Origin: Membranipora membranacea
Lineage: Eukaryota > Bryozoa > Gymnolaemata > Cheilostomatida > Membraniporidae
Assembly (NCBI GenBank): GCA_914767715.1
Contig: OU612065.1
Span: 34,408,001-34,472,000, forward strand
Reading direction: 5' to 3'
Length of the DNA: 64,000 nt
Shown piece by piece: positions 242-56,099 of the stretch. Numbering within the stretch: the stretch's first letter is position 1; every line of letters starts with the position of its first letter. The translations under genes were made by a program, and so were the position numbers. Under the pieces are notes generated by a model, which was not told the origin of the DNA, ran no database searches, and was given only the letters and a program-made list of their open reading frames with translations.

Positions 242-325
242 AGATACAAATTAATTATGTTGGTAAATCGGAGCAAACGAATTAATTATTTATCTCAAAC
301 TTTAAAAAAAGGGGAATTTTAAAAA

Positions 326-3153: not shown

Positions 3154-3199
3154 ATTTTTGTGCTAAATTATACTCTGAGTTTCATACAGCTAGTTCTCT

Positions 3200-3650
3200 G
3201 GTCTACTATTTTAGTAGCGCTGTCAGAGCTTGTATATTATTATTATTATTAACAACCTGAAATACTGATATACCTCTTTGCGGTCTACTATTTTAGTAGC
3301 GCTGTTAGAGTTTGTATATTATCAATAATTTGAAATGTTGAAATAGCTCTTTGCGGTCTACTATTTTAGTAGCGCTGTTAGAGTTCGTATAGTATTAATA
3401 GACTAAGGAAAAAGATATTTATGCCCAAAAGTTTCTTGAAATAATTATTTTCTCGGGTCTGGTCACTACAGAAGTTCTCTGGTCTACATTTTAGTAGAGC
3501 TGTGAGCGCAGCGACATTCTTTGACCAACAATAACGACAAAAAGCGTAAAGTATTTTGTTCACAAAAAAATATCTTGTAATAATTACTTGCTCTGGTCTG
3601 GTCACTACAGAAGTTCTTTGGTCTACATTTTAGAAGAGCTGTGAGCGTAA
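3200..3650 (-). repeat. tandem repeats in the element leader (five degenerate copies)
   Basis: A motif reading GGTCTAC(T)ATTTTAGTAG followed by CGCTGT or AGCTGT recurs at about 3200, 3282, 3355, 3481 and 3620. Spacing is 82, 73, 126 and 139 bases. It lies between the primer-binding site and gag, where packaging signals are normally found. Nothing else is seen in 3154-3717. Confidence 0.7.
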
Positions 3651-3717
3651 TGACATTCTAAGACCGGCAAGGAAAAGACTTTTCAATAAATTTCCAGATT
3701 ACCTACCTTACGCGTCC

Positions 3718-3735
3718 ATCCTGCTTCTGCCACCA
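3718..3735 (-). other. primer-binding site, tRNA-Leu type
   Basis: On the minus strand TGGTGGCAGAAGCAGGAT starts one base after the 5' LTR end. It begins with the TGG complementary to a tRNA 3' CCA, and it resembles the tRNA-Leu primer site of other Gypsy elements. The tRNA identity is inferred. Confidence 0.7.
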
Positions 3736-3736
3736 G

Positions 3737-4207
3737 TGTTGGGAAATTCTATCTTGTCAGGATAGCCAGCATGGGCTTGGCATAATTATTCCCGATCTCC
3801 AACTTGTTCTGATGAACGCGTAAGGCTTAACGGCAACCTGCCAGTCGAAAAGTCGGTTTAAAACAAGGCTACCAGCCAGGCATAAAAAATGTGTTGTTTA
3901 TCAACTATACTATGATTTTATTGTGTACTAACTATCTAACTAAAACTAACAGAGTTGCAAAGATTTAATGTATAAATCAGTAAAGATAATCAGTGCGTTT
4001 AGTCTCGTCCGCTAGCAAACATGAAGTGTCAAGTTGTAAGAGGGAAGAGTGTAAGCTTGCTAAAAATAGTTACTGTCGTAGCATTAATAAAGGATTATTA
4101 TAACAGACAAAACATGTGTAGGAATAGAATGTATGATTAGAATGTATGAATAGAATGCGTCTTCAGTGCTTAATATATATAACAGTCAAAGACTGAAATT
4201 CCCCACA
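3737..4207 (-). repeat. 5' LTR of the Gypsy element
   Basis: 471 bases, starting TGTGGGG and ending ...CCCAACA on the minus strand (TG...CA termini). It contains a 26-bp internal duplication absent from the other LTR. The bases after 4207 belong to an interrupted LINE. Confidence 0.85.
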
Positions 4208-5109: not shown

Positions 5110-5717
5110 AGGCCGCCATTTTTCGGCGCCAAATTGAAAAAAAAACAAAAAAAAACTTAAACTTGTTTTTTTTAAATTTTTACAAAATTAGCCGTCAAGA
5201 AAAAACTAAAAAAGGGAAGAAAATCAATCAAGATGGCGAAAAAAATAATCAGAACATCAACATTTGAACAATTTATAATTGAGTATTGAACATAAATTAA
5301 ATGGTATATTGTTAAAAGTAGATGCTATCATATTAACTAAGAAGTTATTTGAAGTTAAGTGTAGCTTGAACATATTAAAAATGCGCGAAAAATTAGAATT
5401 TACTAACATAAATGGTGGACATGTCTTGTTTACCAATTGATGTCCAGTTATGCTAGTAAAATATATCTTGAGCACTGGTAGATGTAGAAGGTGTAATGAC
5501 CCTGATAATTCATTAGTTGGTACCAGGTGATTAGGAATGATTTGTATATTACATTTCAACCTGAATGCTCTCTTTTGGAGTAAAAATATGTCCTTTAGTA
5601 TATAGTTTGGTGATAGGTTGTAGTAAATATGGATACTACTTATGATGTGGCAAAAAATTAAATGATGGTAAAGTATATAAGATGTTTTGTTGTCAAAAAA
5701 CTCCTACAAAGTTGTTA
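5110..5717 (-). pseudogene. LINE 3' end fragment, copy 1 (RT C-terminal region)
   Basis: The minus strand encodes the tail of a LINE reverse transcriptase: NLSPNYILKDIFLLQKRAF followed by the HLVP...LHLLHLPVL region and a terminal LCSILNYKLFKC. The 3' end lies in an A/T-rich stretch near 5110-5220. It is truncated at its 5' side. Closely similar copies lie at about 8690-9292 and 13790-14230, two of them directly followed by the same 182-bp repeat, so this fragment was copied along with the LRR-exon modules rather than inserted three times. Confidence 0.75.
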
Positions 5718-5948: not shown

Positions 5949-5991
5949 TCTAGGATCTCTGACCAGCCTAAAGGAGCTGTTGTTAGCATAG
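5949..5991 (+). pseudogene. truncated LRR exon
   Basis: After a good acceptor (TGTTATAG) the sequence encodes LGSLTSLKELLLA and then a stop. It matches the first 13 residues of the 141-bp LRR exons and then diverges, and no donor is retained. It is a broken copy of the LRR exon about 360 bases upstream of the intact one. Confidence 0.65.
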
Positions 5992-6307
5992 CTGTTGGTG
6001 ATAGGTGGTTTTGGTATGACAACACCTGGGAGTTAGAATCTAAAATACAAATATAGAATTTATTCTAAAGTCATAGATACCGAAGCACAATCCAAGTATT
6101 TACATTAAATCTGAGGTGCTCATATTCTCAAAAGATTTCATGCGGGGTTGGGCTTAAGCTAGTTCAGGCTTGATCAACAGTCTAACTGGTTCAGACTGCC
6201 GTTATCAGGGGATTATCAACTGATTTACTGACTGTCCCTATAAAAAATACTACATAAAAATACATTACCGAATCTTCTCACATCACAATCTGTGTTCTCT
6301 GTTATAG

Positions 6308-6448
6308 TTTAAGAACACTGACCAGCCTGGAAGAGCTGACGTTAGATGATAATATAACACTGACAGAGTTACCAGATGAGATCGGGGGATTGAAGAGTCT
6401 ACGGACATTAAATGTATCATACTGTGGCCTCACCAGTCTGCCAAGCAG
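6308..6448 (+). CDS. LRR exon A (two leucine-rich repeats)
   Basis: 141 bases between GTTATAG and AG|GTAAAT. Encodes SLRTLTSLEELTLDDN, TLTELPDEIGGLKSL and GLTSLPSR, i.e. two repeats of about 23 residues. Both ends are phase 2, so it can be duplicated or skipped without changing frame. Exon 12027-12167 differs at only a few codons. Confidence 0.8.
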
Positions 6449-9400
6449 GTAAATATATATATTTATATACATTCATTACATATTGAGTTTGAGTCGCTTT
6501 AAGAACATATTGATGTGCACTGAAAGAACTTATGTATATATAAATATATATATTGATTGCATGTTGAGTTTAGGAACTCTAAGAACTTATTGATGTGTGC
6601 TGAATCTCAAGCTCTAAGCTGAAAATATTGCATTGTGAGACTGGTGTGTAGAACACAATTACCAACAAGGTGACCCTCGATTGCAATTTTTTGTCAAATT
6701 TTTATAGCACTGTAGGACGTAAATATTAACTGCATGATATTGTCATAAACCAACTTTATGGCAGGATATTAAGGATTTGTCTTAAGTGCTGTTGGTCAGA
6801 GTTTTGGGTATACCAATTCGCCAGATCTGCGAGAGATAGAATTTACAATACAAGTATGGAATTTATGGAATCCTACTGATATGCAATGTATGCCTGGAAT
6901 CGTCAATATGATATACGTATTAGATTTCATTCCTTTTTAGGGCAGTTGTGTGCAATATAAACATATAGGAATGGAAAGTGATATACCTACTCAAGAATAT
7001 TATGAAGATCATCTTTAGGATCATATCCCCTTGTAAAAATCACTGACCCAGCTTTGTTGCCAGTATTATAGGAGTTGCTTGCACCGATGTGTTTGTATAC
7101 GCTGTTTGTCAGGTTTTTGGATAAGCCAACCGCAAGGAATATTTATAATAGAAAAGGCAATTTCAAATATCGTAGCCTATTGACCGTTGGTGTGCGGTCT
7201 TTGTATTAAACCTGTGGCCAAACGTCTCTGGGCATCACTGCCAAGAAAATTTATGTTGTAAGGTAGGAATTAATGAGCTATTTTTTAGTTAGCTGCAAAC
7301 GATATTCCGCTAATATTTAAAACTTGCAGATACTATAAATGGCAAAAAGATTTGCCCATATAAATTGTAAAACTAATAATTCATACATTACTATCAATCT
7401 ATTTATAAGCGGACATACTCTCCAAATATTACCAGACACCAAACTCCAGGGGATGGTTTCAATAAGAGACTCAAACATCTCTTATAGCTTCAAAATTCAG
7501 CAATAAATAGATATACAGACATAATGTTTCCCATCATTCAGTAAGTGTTTGCATTGCTGTTTGTCCGGTTATTTTATATCAGCAAGCTTTGAAAAATAGA
7601 AATTAGAGAAGAAATTTGAGAATATCAAATTTTATTTTACATCCAAAATATACAATCCCCTTTGTTAGAACTTACCTGTTCCCAAGTTGTAGGCTGGGCA
7701 TGTTACAGAGAGCAGGTTATCTTTCTGTTTAGCCAATGCAGAATGACAACCCAAGGCCTGCAGGTCAGATTCACTTTCTCCCATCTCTTTCCAGGTTAAT
7801 AGATCACCCAATAGTGATTCCGTACATGTGCTCCATTTTGGCACCAAACATCTCATAAAAGTTTGTCTACATTGATAAGGAAGAATTTGATGTCAGGAGT
7901 GGGACTCTCATAAACAATGCCCTATACTATCAAACAATAATTACTGATAAATAAATTTACTAATTTTTCTCAGTAAATAGTAATCATTTTTTTTAAAACA
8001 TTATAGCTGCACCTTCCTCCGCTATATTTGACTCTGAGGATGGATTTTTGAAAGCTTATTTTCTTTATTTAAAAGAAAGTAAAATATGAAAAACTGTAGT
8101 AATACAATACATTTGACTACTCATTCTTTTCCCGAGTTCAGTTTTTAGTTATATTACAATGGCTAGGCTCGATGTGATTACCATGATGTCGAAGTTATTA
8201 GGATGTAAATTTGAGCATAGCAAATTGGTAAAAGTAACTTGCATTTTTTGTCCCTAATATTACCCCCCACACAAGAAAACTGCTGCATGTGTAGTAACAA
8301 GTCTCTATAATGAATGCTGGACCTGAACCGCAGGCCATCTTCAAATCAGAGGTGCTCATACTCTAAACCTTTGACACGGGGTTATATGTATGTTAGTATG
8401 TCATTGTATTCATCTTATTCACTGAGAAATAAAATGTTTGTGTAATGTGCTCTGGGTAAAAACTTATAAAATATTGCACCAAAAATAATAAAAAGATATA
8501 ATAAAAGACACACAATCTATTTAGTTATCTAGTAAAGAGTATACTATTCAAAAGTCTGACACTTTCCGCCCTGAAACATTTGGCACGGATTTGAACTCTG
8601 TGTCTTATGGCAGTGTAACGACCTGATGGAAGTTGGTCAAGTATCAGTACAGGCTCGCTGGAGGTGGCAACCATTCGAAGACTTTTAGTCTTGAGTTTAC
8701 TTATGAAAAAAAAACAAACTTAAACATGTTTTTTTTTAAATGTTTTACAAAATTAGCCGTCAAGAAAAAACTAAAAAAGGGAAAAAAATCAATCAAGATG
8801 GCGAAAAAAATAATCAGAACATCAACATTTGAATAATTTATTATTGAGTATTGAACATAAATTAAATGGTATATTGTTAAAAGTAGATGCTATCATATTA
8901 ACTAAGAAGTTATTTGAAGTTAAGTGTAGCTTGAAAATGTCTCTCATATTAAAAATGCGCGAAAAATTAGAATTTTCTAACATAAATGGTGGACATGTCT
9001 TGTTTACCAATTGATGTCCAGTTATGCTAGTAAAATATATGTTGAGCACTGGTAGAAGTAGAAGGTGTAATGACCCTGATAATTCATTAGTTGGTACCAG
9101 GTGATTAGGAATGATTTGTATATTACATATCAACCTGAATGCTCTTTTTTGGAGTAAAAATATGTCATTTAGTATATAGTTAGGTGATAGGTTGTAGTAA
9201 ATATGGATACTACTTATGATGTGACAATAAATTAAATGATGGTAAAGTATATAAGATGTTTTGTGGTCAAAAAACTCCTACAAAGTTGTTATTGCCTTTG
9301 CTTCCTTTTAACGGACTAAGGAAACATGGTCATGCCATGTTAGCCTGTCATTCATGATGAAACCTAACCGTTTTCATTCAGGCTTTATCAACAGACTAAC

Positions 9401-12400
9401 TGGTTCAGACTGACATTAGTAGGGGAATGTCAACTGATTTGCTGACTATGTTTATAATAAATACTGTAAAAAAATGCCTTTGCTTCCTTTTAACGGACTA
9501 AGGAAACATGGTCATGCCATGTTAGCCTGTCATTCATGATGAAACCTAACCGTTTTCATTCAGGCTTTATCAACAGACTAACTGGTTCAGACTCACATTA
9601 GTAGGGGAATGTCAACTGATTTGCTGACTATGTTTATAATAAATACTGTAAAAAATGCCTTTGCTACCTTTTTACTGACACAGGAAACATGGTCATGCCA
9701 TGTTAGCCTGTCATTCATGATTAAACCTAGCAGTTTTCTTTTCAGGCTTTATCAACAGACTAACTGGTTCAGACTGACATTATTATGGGAATATCAACTG
9801 ATTCTCTGACTATGTCCATAATAAATACTGTAAAAAAATTCATTTATCTAATCCTATCATAACACTATCATGTGTTCTCTCTTATAGTCTGGGATCACTC
9901 ACCAGCCTAGAGGTGCTGAGGTTAGGTGGTAATGAATCACTGACCGAGTTACCAGATGAGATCGAGGGATTGAAGTGTCTGCGGAAGTTATATGTACGAA
10001 GGTGTGGCCTCACCAGTCTGCCAAGCAGGTAAATATGATATATATATATATATGTATATGTATATATAGAGGGAAACTGTGATTGTGTCAGCTAACTTGG
10101 CCAAAGATATGTCCACAGAGTAAGGATACAGAGGTGAAACTTTAATGAGAGTCATAGTGCCTTCGGTTTTGGATTCACTGTGGGAAAATCATCAATGTAA
10201 AGTAAAACTGATAAAGTGGAAAAGAAACTGTAGTCTGGAAGCTGTCACGTAAAATATTGAGAGATGACGGCATCTCAACTACCACGTTCCATCCTATTAC
10301 CTAAGCTTAGCCAGTTGTTTTCATCAATCAGTCACCAGCCTGCATATTGCTATATTACTGTATTTTTCTGTATAATATATTTTGTGTGTGTCAGGATGTA
10401 AAGAAAAGCAGTTAATTGAATGCATATGAGAAGTTTGGAACAGCTGTTGGATATCACATACTGCTATAAACATTATTTACATCAAAACATTAGATCATTT
10501 TTCAATAAATAATACTAATACTGAGTGCAAAGTTACCTCGCGTACCATTCTAACTAATAGTAAAAAACTATTAAAGGACCAAAGCAATATATAGTCTAGC
10601 TAGTGCTGCAGTAGCCTGTCTTGACAAGCTTTGTTCGGTGGGGGGTGGGGGAAAATGCAAGAGTTGACAAACTTTGTTCTCCACCCCAACCGAACAAAGC
10701 TTGTCAAGACAGGCTAGTCCTGCAGTAGTCATGCAACAGTTTTACACTGAAAGAGTCATAGCACTTCTGGGTAACAATCATGTAAAGTGGTAGAAATCAT
10801 CATCCTGCTGACCTAATGAATATATGCCATGTGCTGTACAAGTAAAATAAACTAGCACTTTAGAGCTTCCTACTTTCCTTCCAAACTGGAACCACTCACA
10901 CCAGTGGATAAAAAAACTCTTATGATGAGGGTTGCCATAACAAACTCCATATAAATCCCTCTAGTTGCTAGTATATACACCAACACCAGTTAACTGCAGT
11001 TCTCTAATTGTGTACTACTGTGTAATTGTTAGCACTCTGTGTGTATGGACTATCGAATCCACCTGAGCAATCAACTTCATTATGTGTCTTGCAAAGGTTG
11101 TGTCTAAGATTTTGTTTTGAGCCGTGAAAAAGTGGTCGGCATACTTTCAAATTATTACAACTGTCTACTATTCGATATAAAGTAGGTGAAATATGATAAG
11201 GATTCGGATGAAATCCAAAATATGACACAACAAAATTGTTTCAACTGGTTTTCCTCTGCCTAAACTCATCCAGAACATTTCAACATAAAAAGGAGGGGAT
11301 AACATTTATCACTTTCTATTAGAATCAATATTAACTTGGTCCACTGCAGCAATTCAAATAGCAGTCCCGCCAATAACAAAGAAGCCAAGATCTTACATAC
11401 CTTCCCTTGAACTGGAGCATAAAAATAATTATCCCGACAAATCATACAATAGAATCTACAATAGATTCAATATAGCTTCGATTATCTTTATTATATGTCA
11501 ATTATTTAAAAACTCCACTACTAAATTAAATGTATAAATAGATGCAATTTTATATCAGACATATCAGTCTATTTCTAAGTCCGCTGACACAATGAGTTTT
11601 GTAGCCACTTATATAGTGAAAAAAACCTTTAATATTCTCACTGAAACTTGTGTTGTTCAATCATTGTTCCAATTTTTTATTAGCTGTATAATAGAACTTC
11701 ACTCTAATTATCAGCTCCTAGTCACTAAGTTAACCTGGTCCTGGCATTAGCTGTTTGATGTTATAAGTTCCTTTTAACGGACTAAGGAAACATGGTCATG
11801 CCATGATAGCCGGTCATTCATGATGAAACCTAACCGTTTTCATTCAGGCTTTACCAACAGACTAACTGGTTCAGACTCACATTAGTAGGGGAATGTCAAC
11901 TGATTTGCTGACTATGTTTATAATAAATACTGTAAAAAAATGCCTACTGACTATCCCCATAAAAAATACTACATAAAAATACATTACCGAATCTTATCGC
12001 ATCACAATCTGTGTTCTCTGTTATAGTCTAGGAACACTGACCAGCCTGGAAGAGCTGACGTTAGATGTTAATAAAACACTGACAGAGTTACCAGATGAGA
12101 TCGGGGGATTGAAGAGTCTACAGACATTAAATGTATCAGAGTGTGGCCTCACCAGTCTGCCAAGCAGGTAAATATGATATATTTATATACATTCATTACA
12201 TATTGAGTTTGAGTCGCTTTAAGAACATATTGATGAGCACTGAAAGAACTTATGTATATATAAATAAATATATAAATAAATATATAAATATATGTATATA
12301 TATATAAATTCATTGCATGTTGAGTTTAGGAACTCTAAGAACTTATTGATGTGTGCTGAATCTCAAGCTCTAAGCTGAAAATATTGCATTATGAGACTGG

Positions 12401-15400
12401 TGTTAGAATACAATTACCAACAAGGTGACCCTCGATTGCAATTTTTTGTCAACTTTTTATAGCACTGTTTGTCAGGTTTTTGGATAAGCCAACCGCAAGG
12501 AATATTGATAATAGAAAAGGCAATTGAAAATATTGTAGCCTATTGACCGTTGGTGTGCGGTCTTTGTATTAAACCTGTGGCCAAACATCTCTGGGCATCA
12601 CTGCCAAGAAAATTTATGTTGTATGGTAGGAATAAATGAGCTATTTTTTTAGTTAGCTGCAAACGATATTCCGCTAATATATAAAACTTGCAGATACTAT
12701 AAATGGCAAAGAGATTTGCCCATATGAATTGTAAAACTAATAATTCATACATTACTATCAATCTATTTATAAGCAGTCATACTCTCCAAATATTACCAGA
12801 CACCATGATAGGTTGATAGACTGCAAGATGGATTACAAAGTCTCCAGGGGATGGTTTCAATAAGAGACTCAAAACATCTCTTATAGCTTCAAAATTCAGC
12901 AATAAATAGATAGACAGACATAATGTTTCCCATCATTCAGTAAGTGTTTGCATTGCTGTTTGTCCGGTTTTTTTATATCAGCAAACTTTGAAAAATAGAA
13001 ATTAGAGAAGAAATTTGAGAAAATCAAATTTTATTTTACATCCAAAATATATAATCCCCTTTGTTAGAACTTACCTGTCTCAAAGTTGTAGGCTGGGCAT
13101 GTTACAGAGACCAGGTTATCTTTTTGTTAAGCCAATGCAGAATCACAACCCAAGGCCTGCAGGTCAGATTCACTTTCTCCCATCTCTATCCAGGTTAATA
13201 GATCACCCAATAGTGATTCCGTACATGTGCTCCATTTTGGCGCCAAACATCTCATAAAAGTTTGTCTATATTGATAAGGAAGAATTTGATGTCAGGAGTG
13301 GGACTCTCATAAACAATGCCCTATACTATCAAACAATAATTACTGATAAATAAATTTACTAATTTTTCTCAGTAAATAGTAATCATTTTTTGAAAATCAT
13401 TATAGCTGCACATTCCTCAGCTATATTTGACTCTGCGGATGGATTTTTGAAAGCTGATTATCTATATTTCAAAGAAAGTAAAATATGAAAAACTGTAGGA
13501 ATACAATACATTTGACTACTCATTCTTTTCCCGAGTTCAGTTTTTAGTTATATTACAATGGCTAGGCTCGATGTGATTACCATGATGTCAAAGTTATTAG
13601 GATGTAAATTTGAGCATAGCAAATTGGTAAAAGTAACTTGCATTTTTTGTCCCTAATATTACCCCCCACACAAGAAAACTGCTGCATGTGTAGTAACAAG
13701 TCTCTATAATGATGCTGGACCTGAACCGCAGGCCACCTTCAAATCTGAGGTGCTCATACTCTAAACCTTTCACACGGGGTTATAGGCTTAAACTTGTGTT
13801 TTTTTAATGTTTTACAAAATTAGCCGTCAAGAAAAAACTAAAAAAGGGAAAAAAATCAATCAAGATGGCGAAAAGAATAATCAGAACTTCAACATTTGAA
13901 TAATTTATAATTGAGTATTGAACATAAATTAAATGGTATATTGTTAAAAGTAGATGCTATCATATTGACTAAGAAGTTATATGAAGTTAAGTGTAGCTTG
14001 AACATGTCTCTCATATTAAAAATGCGCGAAAAATTAGAATTTTCTAACATAAATGGTGGACATGTCTTTTTTTTCAATTGATGTCCAGTTATGCTAATAA
14101 AATATATGTTGAGCACTGGTAGATGTAGAAGGTGTAACGACCCTGATAATTCGTTAGTTGGTACCAGGTGATTAGGAATGATTTGTATATTACATATCAA
14201 CCTGAATGCTTTTTTCTGGAGTAAAAATACATTCTGCGCATGCTCAGCTCTGGGCATGAGCTGATCTCTGCAAAATTGAGTCTCGGAATTCCGAAGCCAT
14301 CTGATTGGCTACCTGCTCTGGTGACATATTCCCCAAAGCATGCGGATTTGTTATTAATAGTTATCCTCTCTTGTCATTATTAGCTGATTTTGATTGACAG
14401 TTTTTGCAGGGATGTCCCATCTCCCCTTATCCAAAGTTGCAATCAGAATCCAAACTAAACTCATTGTTCTTGCACATGCGCAAATTCAAGTCACGCATGA
14501 TGCATACTTAGCCTTACGACACTTGCTTTGTGGTAATAACACCCTAGTTTATCAGTGATCTACATGCCCAGTCAGATCACGAGAGTCAGTATGGTAAAAA
14601 TAAGTCAGTGATTGGATGGCGTTGCGTCATTTTATCGGAGAAGTGAGGCCGAAAAGGCTGTTTTAGCAAAGTGGATGGCTGTGCTACATTGATTGCTACA
14701 AATTTCTTAACAGGTTACATTCATTCTTAGAGACATAGTTCATCCTAATTTTAGGTTTAAAATAATATTTAATGAGCCCAAAATGGCTTTTTTAAGTCAC
14801 GTCATAATGCGTGTTTGTTTTTTAACTTTGATGATATAATGCTAAATTTTAGGCTACGATTTGAGACAGTTCGAATAAAAAAGGGCCAAATTATTTGCTA
14901 TTTTCCGCTATTATTGCTGTTTAAAATGACACACACAACTTTCAGCAGTATATCAAATGTATCAATATCAGCATAGACCATCAAAGGTAGACACGTTTTG
15001 CGCCATTTATCAATAACGTCAAACATGCTGTCAAAAGGTCCAGCACTAAGGACAAACAAATTTATTTTGAAAATTCTCACAAACGAAGCGGCTTTGATTG
15101 AGCATGGTGCAAACAGGAAATGCCAACAGAATATGGCATAATGTATTTGTCTTCCTCGAATTATACCACACAGAATGCCCAAAACAGCCCATTTAATGGA
15201 CTTTTCAAGGTGTTTTTCGGCATTCTGTGTGGTATAATTCGAGAAAGACTAAAACATAGTGCCATATTCTGTTGGCATTTCCTGTTTTTACTATGCTTAA
15301 TCAAAGCGGCTTCGTATGTTAGAATTTTCAAAATAGATTTGTCTGGCCTAAGTGCTGGACATTTTGACAGCATGTTTGACGTTATTGATAAATGGTTTTG

Positions 15401-18400
15401 TGGGTTAAAATTGCAAGTGTTGTCTCTGTCCGAGGACTGAGGAATATCAGTGCCTTAAGGGCGCGGCTGCTGTATTCGGCGCCAAGTTGCTCTCAGTTTG
15501 CAGGCAGGTCGGAGCACACCTGGGGCGTCATGTGTCATGAGCCCAGTAGTCAATAGACCGCAGCGGGATTCGAAGCCAGGACCTCCAATGCTTGCGCATC
15601 AGAGGGCAGGCGCTCTAACCAACTGAGCTACCTCCTACTCCTTGTCTAGTAGTAACAGTAAAGTAAAACCGATAAAGTAGAAAAGTTACTGTAGTCTGGA
15701 AGCTGTCACGTAAAATATTGACAGATGACGGCATCTCAACTACCACGTTCCATCCTATTACCTAAGCTTAGCCAGTTGTATTCAGCAATCAGTCACCAGC
15801 CTGCATATTGCTATTACTGTATTTTTCTATATAATATATTTTTTGTGTGTCAAGATGTAAAGGAGAGGTATACACCCGAGGGTGCTGGGGGCTGGAACAA
15901 TCAACAATGAAAGCTCCCCCAGTGGGACTCGAACCCACAACTCCTGCGGCACTGATCGCCTGGCAGTGAATAGCAAGCGCGCTAACCGATTGCTAGCGCC
16001 ATCTCACCATCCCCAAAAAAGAATGGGTGGATGGCGCTAATTAGATAGCCTGCTATTCACTACTCGGAGTTGTGTTCTCTCATCCCACAGCACATTCCAA
16101 TCCACCATTGCTACCCTATGAAACACAGCGTACTTGTTAGGGTTATTGGCCTTACATGGCCCATTTCTGGGACCCCTTGTAGTAGGTTTAGCTGTCTTTC
16201 CAGCTTGTCAGCATGTCTTTCCATGCTGTCACATGTCTTTCTATGAGTCAGTCAGTAGACAAGTACACAGGAAAGTAAAGCAAAGGATGTAAAGCAAAGT
16301 AGTTAATTGAATGCATATGAGAAGTTTGGAACAGCTGTTTGATATCACATACTGCTATAAACATTATTTACTTCAAAACATTAGATCATTTTTTGATAAA
16401 TAATACTGAGTGCAAAGTTACCTCACGTACCATTCTAACTAATAGTCTACCTGATCACTTGCCCATTGCTGGGTGCATTCATATGCCAAAATTGTGTGGC
16501 AAACACAGCCCATCAATAATGGTCACAAAACTACACAGTGACTTAATATCCAACAAAATAAATGAGCCAGGAAATTGGAGTGTAATTTATGAAATTGGCA
16601 ACCCAGGGGAGTCCTCCATGAGCGATGCTTTATAGAAGCAAATTATCACTATCACATCTCTCAAAATCATCACTCACTTGGCTGTTCAATTAGACAAAAT
16701 CGCTCACTCAGAATTTATATAGTTCCATCAAAGACTGAGCCATTTCTGAGCGAGACCATAGAGTGAGCGATCAGATTGCGATTTTGGCTGTTTTTAATTG
16801 AAAGATCCCCCTAAAACCCTTCGCTCTCCTTTAAAATACGATGCAAAAGCTAATAGCACAGTTGTTATAATCCAAGCAGATGAACCAGGTCAGAAATTTC
16901 ACTTTTAAGCCACCCTGTATGATGATGATGGGATCCTTGAAAAATACTCATGGTCAATCATGGCTCAATACTAAAAAACTTGATAAAAAGTATTAAAAAC
17001 CATAAGAGAGTTTCAAAATTGCAGAGTGTGAATTTTATCAGGAAACATTTGAAACAACATGTTTTGAACCTAACAAATAATGGGGGTTTGTCAACATAGT
17101 TTTGAACAGAAAAGTTTGTCATGATGATACAAATGGGTGTTTGAAATTTGACGACATAAAAATGACAGAAAAACATGAAACAACTGATAAATGCAATGAG
17201 TATTTTAGCAAAGTTGGCAGCAATCTTGGAGTCCCACAGGGCTCTGTATTAGGCCTGATCTTATTGATTATATTCATCAATGACCTTGTTAGTACAGCCT
17301 CAGTGTTCGCAGACGATACAAACATTTTCAGTCCGGAGCCTTCATTATCAAATTTGAAACGAATTGACTCATTTTAAAATATACAAACACTTTTCAAATT
17401 TTCTCAAAGCTCATGACAAAATGGTGCCAAATCCTGTTAACTTTATTTCAGATATTGGAAAGAACTTTTAGTATCGAAGTTGCTCACAAAATTTCATTTA
17501 ACATCATAATGCCATAATGTTCAAGCGCCATATTTGAGAACTTTGACAATAATCAAATTTCACTTTGCTCCTGATGTATTGCGCCAGACAGTATCTCGAT
17601 CAACAATCATATTCAGTCTTTATTATTCATTTTTTCACCTCCAACTCATGTATGGGATTGAGTTGTAGGGGCATGCTGCAGATTGCCATCTCGGCCAAAT
17701 TTACCTCCTCCAAAATGCAGCTCTTTTGTTATTTCCTCATTTGGGTCATGTCACTACATATTTTGAAGAATTTTGTCTAATGCCTATTAATATACTAATC
17801 AAATACAGATTTTCAGTTCATTTTCCAAAGCAAATTTTAATAACAAACTAGAAGACCTGAAAAACTGAAAGATCCCCAAAAACTTGTACACGTTCAAATG
17901 AAAATATTATTCCAACCTAAGAGAACCACTAGCTGCAGAGGGTAATGGTCACTGCTCACCGCTGAACTGCAAACCTCATTGGTGAAAGATGTCCTCTGTT
18001 GGGTCTTATGTTCCAAAGTCAGAGAGACTGGCCTGCCTGAGCGCTTGGGCAGGCAGGTCACCACACTAGTCCCCAACTAAATGACCGTAGCACCGCCCTA
18101 TTTTTCTAGTTGTCATGTTATGTCTGAATTTTACTGGATGCAGGAACCAAATAAAAAAAAAATATAACAAACACAATAACACCATTTTCAGTTATTTAGA
18201 CAATAGTCTAATTAAAGTTATTTTATTATGACCTAGATTTAAGTCTTGCAAACTGAAAAGATATGTGTTCTCGGCTTTTGGGTGAGAAGTTGCAGGGGAT
18301 TGGAATGAAGTATCTTTACTTTTATATTATGAGTGAACTGTACACTGATAAACAAATTTGATATTTCATCATAAATGTATTCTGTTTTGAATATTTCTAC

Positions 18401-21400
18401 CGTATCTTGAAATAAGGCATTAAGCAATGTGTGTGTGTGTGTAGTTTCATGCACGCTTGTATCCTTGGTTTTGATGAGTTGGATTTAATTTTGCGCCAAC
18501 CCATAAGTCGTCATTGAAATTGGCGTCCTAGAGACCTGCGAACAGGGCACAATGTTTTGTTGAAAAATCATTTGAACTCCATCTGAATTGGTAAACAAGG
18601 TATATAAGTCAACTCCGTCTACTTTCTGACAAAATTTATAATGAATCTGCTTCCTACAGTAGGAAGCAGATTCATTATAAATTTTGGCTATATTATTATA
18701 AAAATGGCCATATAGAACATTAGTCTCAGAACACATGATTCTTTTGATAGACAATTTCTCACAGGACTGGTCACGAATTCGCCAAATTACAGACACTAAT
18801 TTTGCTTTTGAAACATTCATCGAAAACTACTCTACCATTATTGAAAATTCAAGCAAGAAGACTAGTGCTAAAACCCAAATGCGACATTTTAAAAAGCCAT
18901 CGATGACCACAGAATCATTGGAACTTAGAGAAAAGTGTAAAAAATTGCACATTAAATTTAAACAAGAACAGGAGTTTCCAATACAGAAGCCAGCTAACCA
19001 ATAAATTGCCTTCCAATTAGTCCTTTTTATGATATTTAGGAATTGTTAACAATTTCAGGTATTTCAATGCGTCAGACCTTTTAAACTCTGCGAAGAACTG
19101 TCACAGTGTTACTATTACTGTTATATTGTCACTATTATTCCTCGAATGAACAGAACACCCCCCCCCCTCCCCTAAACATTTTAGTATTTCACAAGATCAT
19201 TATGGGGAAAGTGTGACAAATTTACATAAATCTGGTTAAGAAAAGTATTTCTATTTACATTTCAGAAAAGCTGTAAAATAGCAGACTCCTTTATTGATTT
19301 ATCACAAGAAAATTATTATTATTTTCCTAATAAGGAAGTTCTGATGAGACAACAGAAATTTGTTCTACCATAGACATCGGGTAGCAAGACAGAAATTGCA
19401 CCATATTTAAAACCTAGGCACGGAATCACTGTCCAAATCGATAAAGATTCTTTTATTCCTACCAAATTCCATAGAAAATGCACTGTATGCTATTAAAATT
19501 GCAATGGATTCCTACACTTCTCATAGGTAAAAATATTTGAGCTATTCTATTTTTCTTTTTACAGCATGTCAAACTTAGAAAATTTAAGGCTACTGAATAT
19601 CAATAAGAATATAGCTCTACTCTCAATTCCCGCTGGAGTATGTCGACTCGATACACTCAAGTCAATAGAGTGTGAAGACTGTGCATCTCTGACAAGTCCT
19701 CCTTATGCTGTCTGTAGTCAGGGGCTAGCAGCAATGAGAAAATACTTTGCCGATCTGGAAGAAAATGTTGAGCAAAACATAAAGTTTGTTCCAATAACTG
19801 TTATTGGTCAATCTATGGCTGGTAAAACCAGCCTTGTTCGGTCAATGCAAGAAAATAAACGGGCTTTGACCACTCGATGTAACAATAGCAAGCTAGATGA
19901 GGCCACCAAAGTGATCAAGGTGTGTGAGGTAGACGTTGATGAAAAATTCAAACTTGTATTTCATGACTTTGGTGGGCAAGCAGTATATCAGTTTGCCTAT
20001 CAATTGTCACATAGATCACAGTATGTTCCCATGCTTGTCATAGACATTGCTGAATTTGACCGACTTGTAGCTGAACACGGAGAAGAGAATGCCTGTGAGA
20101 CAGTCTGTTTAACATGGCTCTCCCACCTTTATTTGTCCTGTCCAAAAGCAGGCCAGCCTTTCGTGGTGCTCACCCACTGTGATCTTATCGATAATGAAAC
20201 CTGCAAAGCGAGAGTGAGTCAGTTGATAGAAGTGACTGAACGTCTACGCCTTAGGTTAATAGAGGAGGAGAAGGCAATGAGACCAATAAACAGTCCAATC
20301 TTCATAATGGAGAGTTTCTGTGATACATCTCAACCTCTTCTCTCAAAACACACACCCCTTCTCATATATAAAGGTTCTGGAACACAGGTAATCCTCGATC
20401 TAAAAACTTTCCTTGTGTCTGTTGGATTGCCTCTACTCACAGAGATTCCAGGTAGCTGGTATGTTCTGATGAATTTGTGTGCAAACAGCACACAGCCATA
20501 TCTTACGCTGGGTGAGCTAGACAAGCTCTTCTCTAATGACAAAGATCGCTTCATTCTTCAGTACCTTCATGAAATCGGGCGAGTGATGTGGTACAGAAAT
20601 CGAGTCAAACTAAAAAACATCGTGTTTCATCGCATTGAGCTGCTCACACACCTAGTTGAGTTGCTCTATGATCACTGCAGAGAGGAAGCGTGGAATAAGC
20701 GTAGTTTTCTGGCATTCCAGCATGGTAACATGAGAATCAATCAACGGCAATACAATCATATGGTCCAATCATACCTAAATACTGGAGTGATAAGGGACAT
20801 TTTACTGCTCAACCTCATCAAAAAAGAGTCCGAATTCAAATCCCAACCTGAGCTTGCAATCGAGGTATTGAAGGTCTTTCATTTGGTTTGTGGTCCTGTC
20901 AAGAAGGGCAGTGAAAGTCATTATATCGTCCCATACTTCAGTCAGAGAGAAATCACAATCGAGGAATCTGGAAAGTACATTCTTTTGAAAGTTGACATCT
21001 GTTTCAACGGACTGGCTATTCCTAGCTACGTATATCATCTTCTCGCTGCAAATTATGTGGATCTCCATATGACGCCATCCAATTGTATTGAGGCTGGCTC
21101 CAATGGTGTTTGTGTGAGGGAAAACAATGGCACAATCAAGTACCTGCTTCATAACCATACTGAGAGAACCTTTTCCCTCCTGATACTGACCCCAACAAAA
21201 CATGTCGATAAATCCTGGGACAGCCTGCTGTACACCTTGCAACATTTGAGATCTCAACTGGAACAAGAATGGAAGGGAGCTCACTATGAGATAGTATTCT
21301 ACTGTTCGCACTGCCTGCTCACTAAGAAGGAGAACCCAACCACTCAAGTCAATCCTGCATGGCTCAACACTCGCCATCAACCTTATACTGGCGATGAAAC

Positions 21401-24400
21401 TTGTGACTGTATTCAGCAAACTTCAGCCAAAAGCCGGACTACTATTCCGTATCCACTGTTCTATCCATGTGAGTACAGTTTCACCAACTTATGTATGATT
21501 GATATGGCAATGAAAATTCTGGTCTGCTCTTTCTGCCTTCCTCTATAGATACCTTAATTCAAATTGTTTTTCTGATGCTTGCTATATTATGACATACTAC
21601 ATGCTACTATATGCTTGATAGGTAGCACCATCACAGAGAGAGGGGTTCAGACTTTAGATGAGTACATGTCAGAATTGGAAGTGGCTTCTCATGAATCACA
21701 AATAGAGGATATTGTGAAGGAAGTAAATTCTGAGAAAGATCTTATTTACGCTTCAGATTTATATCCAGTCACGGCTGACCCAATGAGTAGTACACTGAAA
21801 CATAAGGTAGGAAGATGTTGTTGATTTTCACCTTTTATATGTAATATTTTCAAGATGAACCCCACTGTTTTTCTCGTAACCTGCATACAATAAGATGGTA
21901 GTAAATATACTAGATTTAGTTTGCCTAAACACGCATTTGTCAGTGTCTTATTTGCTTGCAAAAGGTGTACAAAATGTCTGAGACTCGCGGAAGAGCACTG
22001 ATTATATCGAACACCTGCAACAACACAAGAAGAGGTTCAGAGCATGACTATCTGAATATTAAAGGAATGCTAGAGAAGTTTGGATTCATCGCTGTAGGAG
22101 GTCACAAAGATTACACTGCAAAGGTAATAGTTTTGCTTAGCTGTTCAACTAAACACTTAATCAGATATCAGTTAATCTTAATATTTAAACAAACATTTAT
22201 GAGTTGGAAGCACTGATATAAATTCATAGATAAGGGAGCATATCTGGCCCTGAACAAGCATTTATGGCAATTTATGTATGATAGCTGGAAACAATTTCTC
22301 ATCTTTGATTGGTCCAAAAGTTCAGTAATGCTACAGCCGACCCCTTGTGAACACTTGACAAGTAGCTTGCCTGAGTTCTGACTGACTGACTGACTCATGG
22401 AAAGATATGTGACAGCATGGAAAGACATACTGACAAGCTGGAAAGACAGCTAAAAAAAACTCACTTCAAGGGGTCCCAGCAATGGGCCATGTAAGACCAA
22501 CAACCCTAACACGTACGCTGTGTTGCATAGCGACGCCGAAAATTTGCCGACCTGCATAGGGTGGCAATGGTGGAGTGGAATGAGCTATGGGACGAGAGAA
22601 CACAACTCTGAGTAGTGAATAGCGGGCATGCTAATTAGTGCCATCAAATCAACCCTTTCCTTTTTGGGGATGGTGAGATGGCGCAATCGGTTAGCGCGTT
22701 TGCCATTCACTGCCAGGCGATAAGTGCCGCAAGAGTTGTGGGTTATAATCCCATTGGGGGAGCTTTCAAGGTTGATTGTTCCAGCCCCCAGCACCCTCGG
22801 GTGTATACCTCTTCTTAAGCTCGTTACTGGGATGTTAGTCAATGCATTACATTAAAGCTGCCGGAATTTCACCACAAATAGCCATGATGTGTTTTTACAA
22901 CTAATCCATGAATTCATATCAATGGTTGGAAGTGACCGTAGCTCAATTGGTGAGGTGGGGGGTTTTCATATGTGAAGTACAGTGGTCATTTACCGCAAAC
23001 GAGAGTTTGTAGCATACTTTACTCAAACCACTTAGTTGTTGTTTTCTCAGATGATGGTAGCAGCTATCCATTCAGAGACACAGCACGTAAATCAAGAGAC
23101 AGAAGAATCAGTACACAAACATCTCAACTCATTTGTGTTGGTCATCACAAGTCACGGTCAAGAAGGATCTGTATCTGGTTCTGATAACAAGCACCTCAAA
23201 ATCACGGAGCTAATGGATCTTCTCTCTCCTAAGAACTTTCCTGCTATGAAAGGGAAGCCCAAGCTTGTAGTTTTACAGGCTTGTGCTGGTAGTAAGTTAA
23301 AGAACCAGTTTACAAACTTATATGAATATGTTTTGTCAAAAGTCTCTGGAAGGGGTGTCTTCAATAAATTGCATGCATTGAAATTAAGTTCCAACTTCCC
23401 TCTCTCATGGTAGGTAACAGCGAAATGCTTCATAATGTCATGCAGCCTGCACAACCAGCACCCAGTCAGGATCAACCAGAAGCACAAATTATCGATCAGC
23501 CTCCTGTCTCATTTCTGCATGATCAGTTTGGTGATTTCCATGGCGAAGACAGCAGTGAGGATGACAATGAATGCCTTCCAGCCGATCCTCATGATATCTC
23601 AACTTCAGACTTCATCATAATGCAGTCTAGCTTTGATTGTAAGTTACGATAACAAATTTTTTACTTTCAAACAAAACCAAATGTCTTTGTGTTGTGGGAA
23701 AGATAGCTGTGCCTGTTTGGCGATGTTGTTGCGATGTTTGGCTATAGAATGGATCATGATTGGTTGAACTATTAAGTCACTATATTATGGCTATCATGAC
23801 CACTGGAGTAGGAGGTGGCTCAGTTGGTTAGAGCGCTGGTTCTTTAGTATACAAATGTTGAAGGTCGTGGGTTCGAATCTCACTTGGTTAACTCCAAGAT
23901 GTGCTCCGACCTGCTTGCAAACAGTGAGCAACCTGGTGCAGATATTGCGGCCTTGCCACAAAGGCACTGCAATTTCGCCACCCACCCACGCGTCGGGATG
24001 TGGATGTGGCGTGTGATAAAAGATCTGATTTTAATCAACCTTTTTAATCAACCTTTTACTCGTCCATGTACAGCTCTCAAATTTGTGCTGGTTGGTTGAA
24101 GACTTACTTGTAATAGCATGAAAGTAGTGATGAATACTAACTACATCTTCTAGATATAGCTCAAACATTCCCCATCACTCGTTTGAGTGATTTTCTTTTA
24201 GGGATATTCTTCAATGTTGCCAGCATTAAATACTCATAAGAACTGCCGTAGATCATGAATCTAGCCGCTTGGTCAGAATATGCAATTGCAATCACTGGAC
24301 AATTTCATAATTCACATTTCAATCTATACAAAAATAATCATATTATTGTCTTTGTTTTCGCTTGTTTAGCATTCAAATCACATCGAACACCTAAATTCGG

Positions 24401-25152
24401 CTCACTGTTCATCCGATGTCTGGTGTCAACATTCTACAGATATGCTGCAACTCATCACCTTGAGGAACTGGCAGCAATTGTAAGAGATAGGGATACATAC
24501 AAGTGTTGGCTACATTATATAATTTTTAACACCAATTTCAAATTTGTTTCGAATACTGTAATTTGCTTTAATTTATAATTTATGTACACATTTAGGAGAG
24601 CTTTCAATGAGTTGTCCCTTCACAAAAATGGAATAATACTGATATAATGTATATAAGAATTTCTCATTGGTCGCCGAAGCTAAGATTAAATAAGCTGCAT
24701 CTCATAGTAAACTTACAATGAGTCACATAAAACTGTATTTGATGAAGAGCGGAACATTCAAAGTTTGTTGGTAACATCTGACTAATTGTTCTTGACATCA
24801 CTCTGATTTTCATTGTTTTGATTTACAGGTCAGAGACGCTGTAGTTAAAGCTGGAGCAAAGAGAACAGAATATCTGCAAAGGAATGAAAGACGTCGTAAA
24901 AACGCACATCACGCCTCAATGCCTCAAACAAGATGTACCTTTGTGGGAAATAAGTTCTATCTACAGCCTGGTATCAATATGATAACAGAGGACCACCCAG
25001 AATCACTGAGAAATCCTGTATTACGCAACCCTACAGCTTCTAGGATTGAGGGAAAACCTGGTGGGTGGAAAGAACTGAATCAGCTGGTAGATGATAATGT
25101 TGAATTCAAGATGCAAAAAACAAGTTTAATTTTCTACCTGATACTACCATAG
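6308..25152 (+). CDS. LRR-Roc-COR-caspase fusion protein (5' end outside window)
   Basis: Proposed exons: 6308-6448, 9888-10028, 12027-12167, 19565-21468, 21622-21806, 21965-22123, 23051-23291, 23414-23638, 24370-24479, 24829-25152. Every junction has GT/AG and matching phase, giving about 1,190 visible residues. Domain order: LRRs; Roc GTPase; COR; a roughly 60-residue spacer; caspase p20; an acidic Pro/Asp-rich linker; p10; a basic tail. The LRR would sense a ligand, Roc-COR would act as a GTP-dependent dimerising switch, and the caspase would be the effector. The first exons and start codon are not visible. Reading through the donor at 21469 gives a stop at 21548, so intron retention would yield a ROCO without caspase. 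A gene boundary at 21.5 kb is the main alternative, but the phases argue against it. Confidence 0.72.
6449..8390 (+). repeat. duplicated intron block, copy 1 (paired with 12168-13790)
   Basis: From the donor of LRR exon A to about 8390 the sequence aligns with the DNA after exon 12027-12167. The second copy lacks about 400 bases (near 6690-7090). Short open frames inside (for example 7665-7856, with a counterpart on the other strand at 13015-13257) are not conserved as protein. The block contains no recognisable gene. Confidence 0.8.
8391..8689. other. intron sequence without recognised features
   Basis: AT-rich sequence between the duplicated block and the second LINE fragment. No motif, coding frame or repeat recognised. 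Confidence 0.6.
8690..9292 (-). pseudogene. LINE 3' end fragment, copy 2
   Basis: Same RT C-terminal remnant as 5110-5717, with a few substitutions and a six-base difference around the FNMRDIFKLH codons. It is directly followed by the 182-bp repeat array, as in copy 1. Confidence 0.75.
9293..9838 (+). repeat. 182-bp tandem repeat array, three units
   Basis: Units begin at 9293, 9475 and 9656 with TGCCTTTGCT, giving periods of 182 and 181. The first two units are nearly identical and the third is more diverged. The array ends about 50 bases before LRR exon 9888. Confidence 0.9.
9888..10028 (+). CDS. LRR exon B (two leucine-rich repeats)
   Basis: 141 bases between CTTATAG and AG|GTAAAT, phase 2 at both ends. 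Encodes LGSLTSLEVLRLGGN, SLTELPDEIEGLKCL and RRCGLTSLPSR. It differs from exons A and C most at the variable positions of the repeats (LRLGG against LTLDD; KLYVRR against TLNVSY). Confidence 0.8.
10029..10195. repeat. TA microsatellite and intron sequence
   Basis: A (TA)n-like run near 10036-10070 follows the donor. The rest is ordinary intron, with a piece of the AGTAAGGATA motif shared with the palindrome at 52790. Confidence 0.6.
10196..10560 (+). repeat. 365-bp block duplicated at 15658-16443
   Basis: Runs from about AAAGTAAAACTGATAAAGT to CATTCTAACTAATAGT. The second copy is split by a 0.4-kb SINE insertion, so the duplication preceded the SINE. Confidence 0.8.
10606..10728. mobile_element. 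foldback element with 26-bp perfect inverted repeats
   Basis: Arms 10613-10638 and 10690-10715 (AGCCTGTCTTGACAAGCTTT...) are perfect reverse complements. CTGCAGTAG occurs at both outer edges (10606-10614 and 10720-10728), as a target duplication would. Related arms occur at 60232-60296, and a solo arm at about 34761-34785, so it is a dispersed family. Confidence 0.75.
10729..11763. other. intron sequence without recognised features
   Basis: About 1 kb of AT-rich DNA. A 74-codon minus frame (11004-11228) has no recognisable motif and is probably chance. Confidence 0.5.
11764..11944 (+). repeat. 182-bp intronic repeat, copy upstream of LRR exon C
   Basis: Starts at TTCCTTTTAACGGACTAAGG and matches the 5718 and 9293 copies almost throughout. 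It then joins the sequence that precedes exon A (near 6230), so this module looks like a recombinant of the two upstream ones. Confidence 0.8.
12027..12167 (+). CDS. LRR exon C (two leucine-rich repeats)
   Basis: 141 bases, GTTATAG acceptor, AG|GTAAAT donor, phase 2 at both ends. Encodes LGTLTSLEELTLDVN, TLTELPDEIGGLKSL and GLTSLPSR. It ends two bases into a Ser codon (AG|C) completed by the first base of the Roc-COR exon at 19565, so the LRRs join the ROCO in frame. Confidence 0.8.
12168..13790 (+). repeat. duplicated intron block, copy 2 (paired with 6449-8390)
   Basis: Near-identical to the first copy apart from a 0.4-kb deletion and a 30-base insertion around 12810-12840. It includes an A/T microsatellite near 12260-12310. 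No gene recognised. Confidence 0.8.
13790..14230 (-). pseudogene. LINE 3' end fragment, copy 3
   Basis: RT C-terminal remnant with NVFLLQKKAFRLICN and the LCSILNYKLFKC terminus, shorter at its 5' side than copies 1 and 2. An unrelated GC-richer sequence joins at about 14231. Confidence 0.75.
14231..15002. other. intron sequence, no gene seen
   Basis: Somewhat richer in GC at its left edge (GCGCATGCTCAGCTC and a partial inverted copy). It may be one end of an unclassified repeat. No coding sequence recognised. Confidence 0.5.
15003..15395. repeat. 177-bp near-perfect inverted repeat (long hairpin)
   Basis: Arm 15003-15179 and arm 15219-15395 are about 90% reverse complementary around a 39-base loop. 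Facing open frames arise on the two arms (minus 14898-15182, plus 15120-15440), but most differences between the arms change amino acids, so I do not treat them as coding. A transcript of the host intron would form a long hairpin here. Confidence 0.85.
15440..15645 (-). mobile_element. tRNA-derived SINE, family B, copy 1
   Basis: Read on the minus strand it begins GGAGTAGGAGGTAGCTCAGT, a tRNA-like A box, then a B box CTTCGAATCC, followed by a body with GTGCTCCGACCTGC. The same head and body occur at 23805-24055. The anticodon arm is not conserved, so it is not a functional tRNA gene. Confidence 0.75.
15658..16443 (+). repeat. second copy of the 365-bp block, split by a SINE
   Basis: 15658-15860 and 16285-16443 together match 10196-10560. 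The interruption is the family A SINE, flanked by GATGTAAAG on both sides. Confidence 0.8.
15861..16284 (-). mobile_element. composite SINE, family A, copy 1 (about 425 bp)
   Basis: Flanked by GATGTAAAG at 15852-15860 and again just inside 16285-16293, consistent with target-site duplication. In element orientation a 270-bp non-tRNA segment comes first, then a tRNA-like region (GATGGTGAGATGGCGC...; GGTTAGCGCG; GGGTTCGAGTCCCA), then a tail ending GGTGTATACCTC. The second copy is at 22375-22815. A tRNA-like promoter in the middle rather than at the 5' end is unusual. Confidence 0.78.
16339..17376 (+). pseudogene. LINE relic: endonuclease end plus RT fragment, split by a MITE
   Basis: 16339-16600 encodes the end of an endonuclease domain (LDHFLINN, then NSLPDHLPIAG at the SDH position). 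17102-17376 encodes NEYFSKVGSNL joined directly to GVPQGSVLG, IFINDL and FADDTNIF, the RT B and C blocks with FADD catalytic aspartates. Much of the RT fingers is deleted and a MITE lies at 16614-16818. Confidence 0.75.
16614..16818 (-). mobile_element. MITE with ATTGAAAGA-type termini, diverged copy
   Basis: On the minus strand it begins GGGGGATCTTTCAATTA and follows the same order of motifs as the intact copy at 28921-29170: CAGCCAAAATCGC, ATCGCTCACTC, GATGGAACTATATA, GAGTGAGCGA. Its far terminus is degraded. Confidence 0.7.
17377..18629. other. intron sequence, no gene seen
   Basis: AT-rich, with a short (TG)n run near 18430. Small open frames on both strands lack motifs. Confidence 0.5.
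18630..18686. repeat. perfect 27-bp hairpin with 3-base loop
   Basis: Arms 18630-18656 and 18660-18686 are exact reverse complements around CAG. Nothing suggests a terminator or gene; it resembles a MITE or inverted-duplication scar next to a LINE piece. Confidence 0.8.
18735..19004 (+). pseudogene. LINE fragment (linker between endonuclease and RT)
   Basis: An 89-codon frame with FETFIENYSTIIENSSKK, FKKPSMTTESLELREKCKKL and a lysine-rich helix. This is the pattern of the segment between the endonuclease and RT of CR1/Jockey-type LINEs, where KPW-T and KK-LY motifs occur. It is bounded by a hairpin on the left. Family assignment is tentative. Confidence 0.5.
19005..19564. other. end of the 7.4-kb intron before the Roc-COR exon
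   Basis: No gene or repeat recognised apart from a C-rich run near 19151-19170. It ends in the pyrimidine tract and TTTTTACAG acceptor at 19564. Confidence 0.6.
19565..21468 (+). CDS. Roc GTPase and COR exon of the LRR-Roc-COR-caspase gene
   Basis: Counting from the Met at 19566: a last LRR at residues 1-40; the Roc domain with P-loop GQSMAGKTSL at 81-90, switch motif DFGGQ at 134-138 and guanine-specificity motif THCD at 203-206; COR from IPGSWYVL (about 294), with LHEIGRVMWY at about 334 and VFHRIELLTHLVEL at about 353. A CxxC motif lies at 580-583. Roc binds and hydrolyses GTP and COR dimerises; all three nucleotide motifs look intact. The acceptor TTTTTACAG precedes base 19565, which completes a split Ser codon. 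The donor is CAT|GTGAGT. There is no kinase domain after COR, unlike LRRK proteins. Confidence 0.85.
21622..25152 (+). CDS. caspase domain exons (p20 and p10) of the fusion gene
   Basis: Exon 21622-21806 is a spacer. Exon 21965-22123 begins VYKMSETRGRALIIS with the conserved RRGSEHD (S1-pocket Arg). Exon 23051-23291 holds the catalytic His in ITSHGQEG and the catalytic Cys in LVVLQACAG (usual QACRG or QACQG). Exon 23414-23638 is a Pro/Asp/Glu-rich inter-subunit linker ending in STSDFIIMQSSFD. Exon 24370-24479 is p10 with KSHRTPKFGSLFIRCL, keeping the Arg and GS[WL]FI motif. The last exon carries VRDAVVKAG and about 100 residues of basic tail. The linker has several Asp residues that could be processing sites. 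The final stop at 25152 is provisional; another acceptor lies at about 25336. Confidence 0.78.
22375..22815 (+). mobile_element. composite SINE, family A, copy 2
   Basis: Lies in the intron between the two p20 exons. Same order as the 15861 copy: GACTGACTCATGGAAAGA, GGGGTCCCAGCAATGGGCC, the tRNA-like ATGGCGCAATCGGTTAGCGC, a degenerate B box GGTTATAATCCC, and the GGGTGTATACCTC tail. Confidence 0.78.
23805..24055 (+). mobile_element. tRNA-derived SINE, family B, copy 2
   Basis: Begins GGAGTAGGAGGTGGCTCAGT, with B box GGGTTCGAATCTCA near 23870, then the shared body GTGCTCCGACCTGC. It sits in the intron between the caspase linker and p10 exons. Confidence 0.75.

Positions 25153-29858: not shown

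Positions 29859-39707
<9,849 letters not shown>

Positions 39708-46428: not shown

Positions 46429-56099
<9,671 letters not shown>

Follow-up and report, generated by a model that had tools for sequence, protein, structure and literature searches.

Does a single animal gene encode a protein in which leucine-rich repeats (LRRs) and a Roc-COR GTPase unit are followed by a complete caspase, or do a ROCO gene and a caspase gene lie side by side on the same strand? The question is raised by a stretch of 64,000 nucleotides from Membranipora membranacea (contig OU612065.1, positions 34,408,001 to 34,472,000), referred to here as the window, in which an earlier interpretation, called the sequence-only reading below, had seen a candidate immune or cell-death sensor of this kind. 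Our analysis favors one gene over two, and we consider it likely that the LRR, Roc-COR and caspase parts all belong to it. The fusion architecture is probably real, and what it does is something that we infer. The gene was reconstructed from ten plus-strand exons between positions 6308 and 25152 (three for LRRs, one for Roc-COR, one for a linker and five for the caspase, Table 1). Upon re-derivation from the raw sequence, GT and AG were found to flank all nine internal junctions, so that the in-phase introns reported to lead into the caspase exons with SHG, QAC and SHRTP were recovered, as were three LRR exons that precede the Roc-COR exon in matching phase. The spliced chain comprises 1190 open codons with phases matching throughout and ends at the stop at 25152; its first codon was completed with an AG assumed to stem from an upstream exon outside the model. 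No second copy of the gene was found within the window.

A domain search of the spliced translation, which had been suggested as a check, returned Peptidase_C14 (E-value 1.4e-29, 103.9 bits, cut-off 21.4), LRR_14 (1.9e-26) and Roc (PF08477, 1.9e-6, 28.5 bits, cut-off 27); COR, also expected, stayed below the Pfam cut-off and was recognized by its fold. The P-loop, DFGGQ and THCD motifs were located again, intact, in the Roc-COR exon (Table 1). The Roc GTPase therefore has both its P-loop and its switch II, and COR follows it directly in an AlphaFold model of the exon (predicted local distance difference test score, pLDDT, 77; predicted template modeling score, pTM, 0.76). The best fold matches of this model are the Roco protein of Chlorobium tepidum (6hlu, 4.3e-17), LRRK1 (8e05, 1.2e-15) and LRRK2 (7lht, 6.7e-12), which align over more than 600 columns with template modeling scores of 0.49–0.57 by query length and a root-mean-square deviation of about 8, values to be expected when several domains with some mutual freedom are compared. 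Model confidence is low for the final 53 residues of the exon, which start inside the FYCSHC motif. When the PDB was searched with the Roc-COR sequence, four Roco sequences were retrieved at E-values up to 0.1, covering residues 42–160 only. Two protein searches provided 40 relatives of Roc-COR (P0001–P0009 and P0013–P0043), contiguous reading frames that cover part or all of the exon and include partial sequences and mutual near-duplicates; P0001–P0009 are 26–57% identical to the exon in the alignment. Viral contigs were likewise scanned with the Roc-COR alignment; none of the 29 pattern matches proved to be a relative. GTP binding and nucleotide-dependent dimerization are predicted for this Roc-COR unit.

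The caspase half matches 169 PDB sequences at E-values up to 0.001 (best 3.3e-12). Its alignment with caspase-9 spans p20 and p10: the His of SHG and the Cys of QAC pair with the equivalent residues, RRGSEHD places its first Arg opposite that of the R-x-G-S element in caspase-9, and SHRTPKFGS aligns its Arg with the one in SWRDPKSGS. A p20/p10 domain with its His/Cys pair (PF00656) is thus accompanied by both S1 pocket arginines, the residues that confer specificity for Asp at P1. These residues support a catalytically complete caspase, as had been proposed, and Asp-directed proteolysis and self-processing are predicted for it. The intersubunit stretch between p20 and p10 is rich in Asp (ten, counted from QACAG to SDFIIMQS), and the first p10 exon carries the motif SHRTPKFGSLFI. 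Within the 1190-residue chain, which excludes the upstream 5′ exon, Pfam gave no match to a CARD, DED or other death-fold prodomain at E-values up to 1 and none to a NACHT or NB-ARC ATPase; the switch is Roc-COR. Three JGI proteins (P0010–P0012) are 43–56% identical to the window caspase and are all caspases by Pfam. Their reading is continuous where the window has several separate exons, and they therefore derive either from spliced RNA or from genes that lack these introns. The structural model of P0010 is poor (pLDDT 45) and its best 50 fold matches, all of them caspases, count only as agreement at this confidence.

Evidence on the join itself came from the junction region, which was used as the query of a profile search and retrieved 37 proteins. 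Only one, P0044, covers 100% of the query, the others reaching 28–53%. P0044 is a protein of 604 amino acids from the bryozoan Bugula neritina, deposited as 'CASP2' (UniProt A0A7J7KAE5). It is colinear with the window chain from mid-COR across the junction into p20 (612 columns, 31% identity, pairwise E-value 7e-79), its COR and caspase halves also match separately (4e-44 and 1.7e-30), and Pro-Cys stands at the junction in both chains. Pfam identifies Peptidase_C14 in P0044 (8e-21) and, weakly, COR-B. Further information was obtained from the 40 Roc-COR relatives, 33 of which reach the Pro-Cys end while the other seven stop or diverge earlier (a stricter pattern gives 32; the wider one adds P0009, which ends in LLNPC). 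Among the 33, Pro-Cys is followed by Glu in 21, Lys in eight, Arg in two and Met in one, and one sequence ends there. Glu or Lys, present in 29 cases, is what read-through of a T/GTGAG or T/GTAAG donor (exon/intron) is expected to produce, and past this residue the tails mostly differ between relatives, near-duplicates excepted. The recurrence of Pro-Cys-Glu/Lys together with the differing tails therefore points to a phase-1 donor at the same place, which is very likely shared across the Roc-COR family. In the window, too, the Roc-COR exon ends in phase 1 and splits a Cys codon. We rejected this Cys as a conserved residue: in the relatives it arises from T plus the read-through intron GT, and its recurrence consequently marks the donor site. 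Both the Bugula neritina COR-caspase model and the exon end common to most relatives thus speak for the fusion put forward by the sequence-only reading.

The same data bear on the possibility that two same-strand neighbors are present, an LRR-Roc-COR gene ending at 21548 and a caspase gene that starts from a Met within the linker exon. The 21548 stop is indeed there, as had been stated, the linker exon holds in-frame Met codons and is preceded by an in-frame stop at 21573, and the JGI caspases P0010–P0012 show no COR part. On the other hand, the residues after Pro-Cys mostly diverge among the relatives, so that an end at 21548 resembles intron read-through; the two parts are just 153 nucleotides apart, the gap contains neither AATAAA nor ATTAAA (the first AATAAA beyond the last exon is at 25209), and the Bugula neritina protein crosses the same junction in one chain. 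We consider two genes distinctly unlikely; the simplest reading of the 21548 stop is that it belongs to the intron. Stops make up 6.4% of the codons in the introns of this gene, and an open frame of 61 codons like that of the linker exon occurs in 332 of 13,743 intron windows (2.4%); homology flanking the join on both sides is the stronger support.

Several observations weigh against a single gene of this architecture. The organization of the locus is known from genomic sequence alone. A start-codon exon was sought and not found, so the gene is 5′-incomplete as reconstructed, and its start may be outside the window. The COR-A match of the spliced chain is subthreshold (0.0017, 18.7 bits, cut-off 35.3), and the LRR exons are linked to the Roc-COR exon by phase, position and LRR continuity only, across an intron of 7.4 kb. 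None of the relatives found spans LRR to p10: P0044 begins in mid-COR, stops at the start of p10 and thus has no LRRs, no Roc and little of p10, and being a gene model it could be wrong. The linker exon of the window is shorter than the linker of P0044 and aligns poorly with it; with P0010 it can be aligned in part (the row for P0010 is omitted from the junction alignment used). The first protein search, run with words from both halves, yielded nine Roc-COR frames and no fusion, a result limited by the fact that gene callers run on unspliced DNA would miss such a fusion. Finally, in P0010, which is 56% identical to the window caspase, the linker part held in common is preceded by 38 residues unlike COR, P0011 starts at p20 and P0012 inside it; some close caspases may therefore be made without a ROCO part. 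The latter point leads to an intermediate case, in which one locus gives two products, the full-length LRR-Roc-COR-caspase protein and the caspase alone from an alternative promoter or splice event, perhaps complemented by a ROCO-only product that could serve as a brake. P0010 would fit, in that its shared linker part follows an N-terminal stretch of another kind, and this holds although it reads intron-free through the stretch that corresponds to the five caspase exons here. However, P0010 belongs to another organism and its N-terminal stretch may be a retained intron, an alternative first exon or part of a gene for the caspase alone. Two products from this locus appear rather unlikely to us.

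We return to the single fused gene and to the state in which it is found. Recent tandem duplications, with matching pieces that are 95–97% identical, contain LRR exons a and c. The two exons differ at seven of 139 positions (six nonsynonymous changes, one synonymous) and their flanks at 40 of 1288 aligned positions (4/82, 6/264 and 30/942). Diversifying (positive) selection on the LRR exons was considered and rejected, six plus one changes being too few. Repeat-rich recent duplications around exons a and c, intronic repeats and copies without a sign of constraint in these changes could also mark a gene that is fused but silent or decaying. Such a pseudogene is highly improbable in our view: none of the ten exons contains a stop or a frameshift, and the P-loop, switch and caspase active-site residues are all retained. 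Independently of this, a short stretch at 5950–6010 resembles the beginning of an LRR exon after an AG and then meets a stop; it may be a decayed LRR exon.

Table 1. Exons, motifs and the COR-caspase intron of the ROCO-caspase gene (positions in the window)
Feature	Positions	Strand	Remarks
LRR exon a, about two LRRs	6308..6448	+	141 nt, phase 2 at both ends; Pfam
LRR exon b	9888..10028	+	141 nt, phase 2 at both ends; Pfam
LRR exon c	12027..12167	+	141 nt, phase 2 at both ends; Pfam
Roc-COR exon (last LRR, Roc GTPase, COR, C-terminal CxHC motif)	19565..21468	+	phase 2 in, 1 out
P-loop GQSMAGKTS	19806..19832	+	in Roc-COR exon
Switch II DFGGQ	19965..19979	+	in Roc-COR exon
THCD, G4-like motif	20172..20183	+	in Roc-COR exon
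FYCSHC	21297..21314	+	C-x-H-C invariant in ten aligned sequences; FYCSHC also in Bugula neritina P0044
Intron between COR and caspase parts	21469..21621	+	153 nt; contains read-through stop 21548
Linker exon	21622..21806	+	185 nt, phase 1 to 0
Caspase p20 exon 1 (p20a)	21965..22123	+	phase 0 to 0; RRGSEHD, first Arg codon 22028
Caspase p20 exon 2 (p20b)	23051..23291	+	phase 0 to 1; His codon 23153 (SHG), Cys codon 23282 (QAC)
p20c (p20 end and Asp-rich intersubunit linker)	23414..23638	+	phase 1 to 1
Caspase p10 exon 1 (p10a)	24370..24479	+	phase 1 to 0; Arg codon 24384 in SHRTPKFGS
Caspase p10 exon 2 (p10b) and C-terminal extension	24829..25152	+	stop at 25152

The remainder of the window contains mobile elements and other genes. 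Positions 1–4132 resemble a long terminal repeat (LTR) element, with ends of 182 bp (1–182 and 3951–4132) that are 98.9% identical and a gag-like minus-strand frame with a zinc knuckle (2230–3162). Three copies of another minus-strand frame (5257–5703, 8822–9277 and 13889–14308) presumably represent the C-terminal region of a reverse transcriptase of the non-LTR type. An imperfect palindrome at 15003–15395, matching its own reverse complement at 87%, is possibly a non-autonomous DNA transposon. Two intronic repeats of tRNA-like appearance (15860–16275 and 22366–22816) lie in opposite orientation and match at 82%, and for a third, at 23797–23892, a tRNA call of uncertain identity was obtained; all three are probably short interspersed nuclear elements. 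Downstream of the ROCO-caspase gene, exons at 31161–35663 encode an elongation-factor-type GTPase (GTP_EFTU, EFG_III) that we take to be EFTUD2-like, and a minus-strand exon at 46429–46731 encodes the DNA-binding domain of a 6-O-methylguanine DNA methyltransferase (2e-26). Histone genes at 47374–51561 read as H3 (−), H4 (+), H2A (−) and H2B (+, 51096–51497), each of the four being followed by a histone 3′ stem-loop. The H2B gene appears similar to molluscan H2B, and with the named fusion relative being a bryozoan, a lophotrochozoan source seems likelier than a sponge. The region 56857–61294 contains a Laminin_N match (56857–57348) and, downstream, a frame of EGF-like appearance (60998–61294).

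For the fused protein we propose the following course of events. Its LRRs would bind a microbial or danger cue, and binding would shift the nucleotide or dimer state of Roc-COR. ROCO proteins dimerize through COR and change with the nucleotide, and initiator caspases are activated by proximity; here a ROCO dimer or oligomer would hold its caspase domains close, such that the caspases pair. Self-cleavage in the Asp-rich stretch between p20 and p10, perhaps also in the COR-caspase linker, would then release or stabilize the active enzyme, which would start cell death or cut other targets. Sensor, switch and executioner would reside on one chain, whereas apoptosomes and inflammasomes operate by death-fold recruitment, and the lack of a match to a death-fold prodomain fits Roc-COR as the platform. 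Provided that one gene is present, we are evenly divided about this mechanism. Taken as a whole, with the weight on the gene, we incline toward the view that an LRR-Roc-COR-caspase protein working in this way is the product of one animal gene. An immune or cell-death sensor role is a reasonable proposal on the basis of the domains.

How does this protein relate to known systems? LRRK1, LRRK2 and the Chlorobium tepidum Roco share with it the LRR-Roc-COR order and the fold of Roc-COR. LRRKs have a kinase after COR and the C. tepidum protein is not known to carry a catalytic effector, whereas the window protein has a caspase after COR and a CxHC motif at the COR end. Caspase-9, caspase-2, CED-3 and caspase-3 have in common with the window caspase the p20/p10 order, SHG, QACxG and the S1 arginines, but here a ROCO takes the place of the CARD, DED or death prodomain. 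We regard the architecture as a variation on ROCO proteins and on caspases rather than as a new type of system. Prokaryotic genomes were scanned as well and provided ten Roc-COR loci, nine of which were analyzed with Pfam (L005, the frame of which reaches the contig end, was excluded). A C-terminal CHAT domain (PF12770), which has a caspase-like fold, follows COR in two of the nine proteins (L007 and L009); L007 and L010 contain TIR. L009 is LRR-Roc-COR-CHAT and L007 has TIR in between, an order like that of the window protein; however, CHAT is distinct from Peptidase_C14, and these bacterial proteins are encoded in one frame. With TIR plus CHAT (L007), CHAT (L009) or TIR (L010) located C-terminal to LRR-Roc-COR, all three are candidate bacterial conflict systems in their own right.

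Bugula neritina 'CASP2' shares the C-terminal half of COR, FYCSHC, the Pro-Cys junction, the linker and p20 in one chain; it differs in being named merely as a caspase, in the reach of its model and in its limited identity. An overlooked relative of the fusion is already public under this name. The sequence-only reading knew of no described ROCO with a C-terminal caspase, and the literature agrees: among the matches listed for open-licence PMC full text, a collection with subscription papers mostly outside it, no title or abstract opening describes a ROCO-caspase fusion. The public databases do hold an example, and the pointer to sponges, cnidarians and placozoans as places to look has so far not been borne out, the one named fusion relative being a bryozoan. 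For Trichoplax, ROCO proteins have been reported that bear CARD, death or TIR domains, and they likewise join ROCOs to death or immune domains in animals; a caspase catalytic domain is not named in the part of that report at hand (PMC4104024). The legend to a figure of sponge NLR architectures includes the labels 'CASc, caspase' and 'COR', which may or may not stand for parts of one protein (PMC12909245). Brown-algal LRR-ROCO genes have phase-2 LRR exons that multiply by duplication and are proposed immune receptors; these exons are of 72 nucleotides with one LRR each, versus 141 here, LRR-ROC-COR is reported as the sole architecture, and the word caspase does not occur in the available portion of the text (PMC11378527). 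The likeness to the brown-algal genes is one of gene anatomy, not of descent.

It can be advanced tentatively, with more doubt than trust, that LRR-ROCO-caspase proteins form a conserved class of animal receptors, in Bryozoa and the lineage of the window at least, that is, one-chain death sensors in which Roc-COR replaces NACHT or NB-ARC plus adaptor and in which the LRR exons diversify by tandem duplication. Within this view bacterial ROCO-CHAT proteins would follow the same logic, by separate origin or from a shared ancestor. How ROCO proteins including LRRK2 convert their GTP state into an output is still debated, and a ROCO with a caspase output would offer a direct read-out: does a change of GTP state or dimer in Roc-COR turn the proximity-activated enzyme on? 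Such a protein would provide caspases with a platform independent of death-fold adaptors and of NACHT or NB-ARC ATPases, and it suggests that ROCO proteins may be a further branch of animal immune and death sensors, consistent with the death-domain ROCOs of Trichoplax and the CHAT ROCOs of bacteria.

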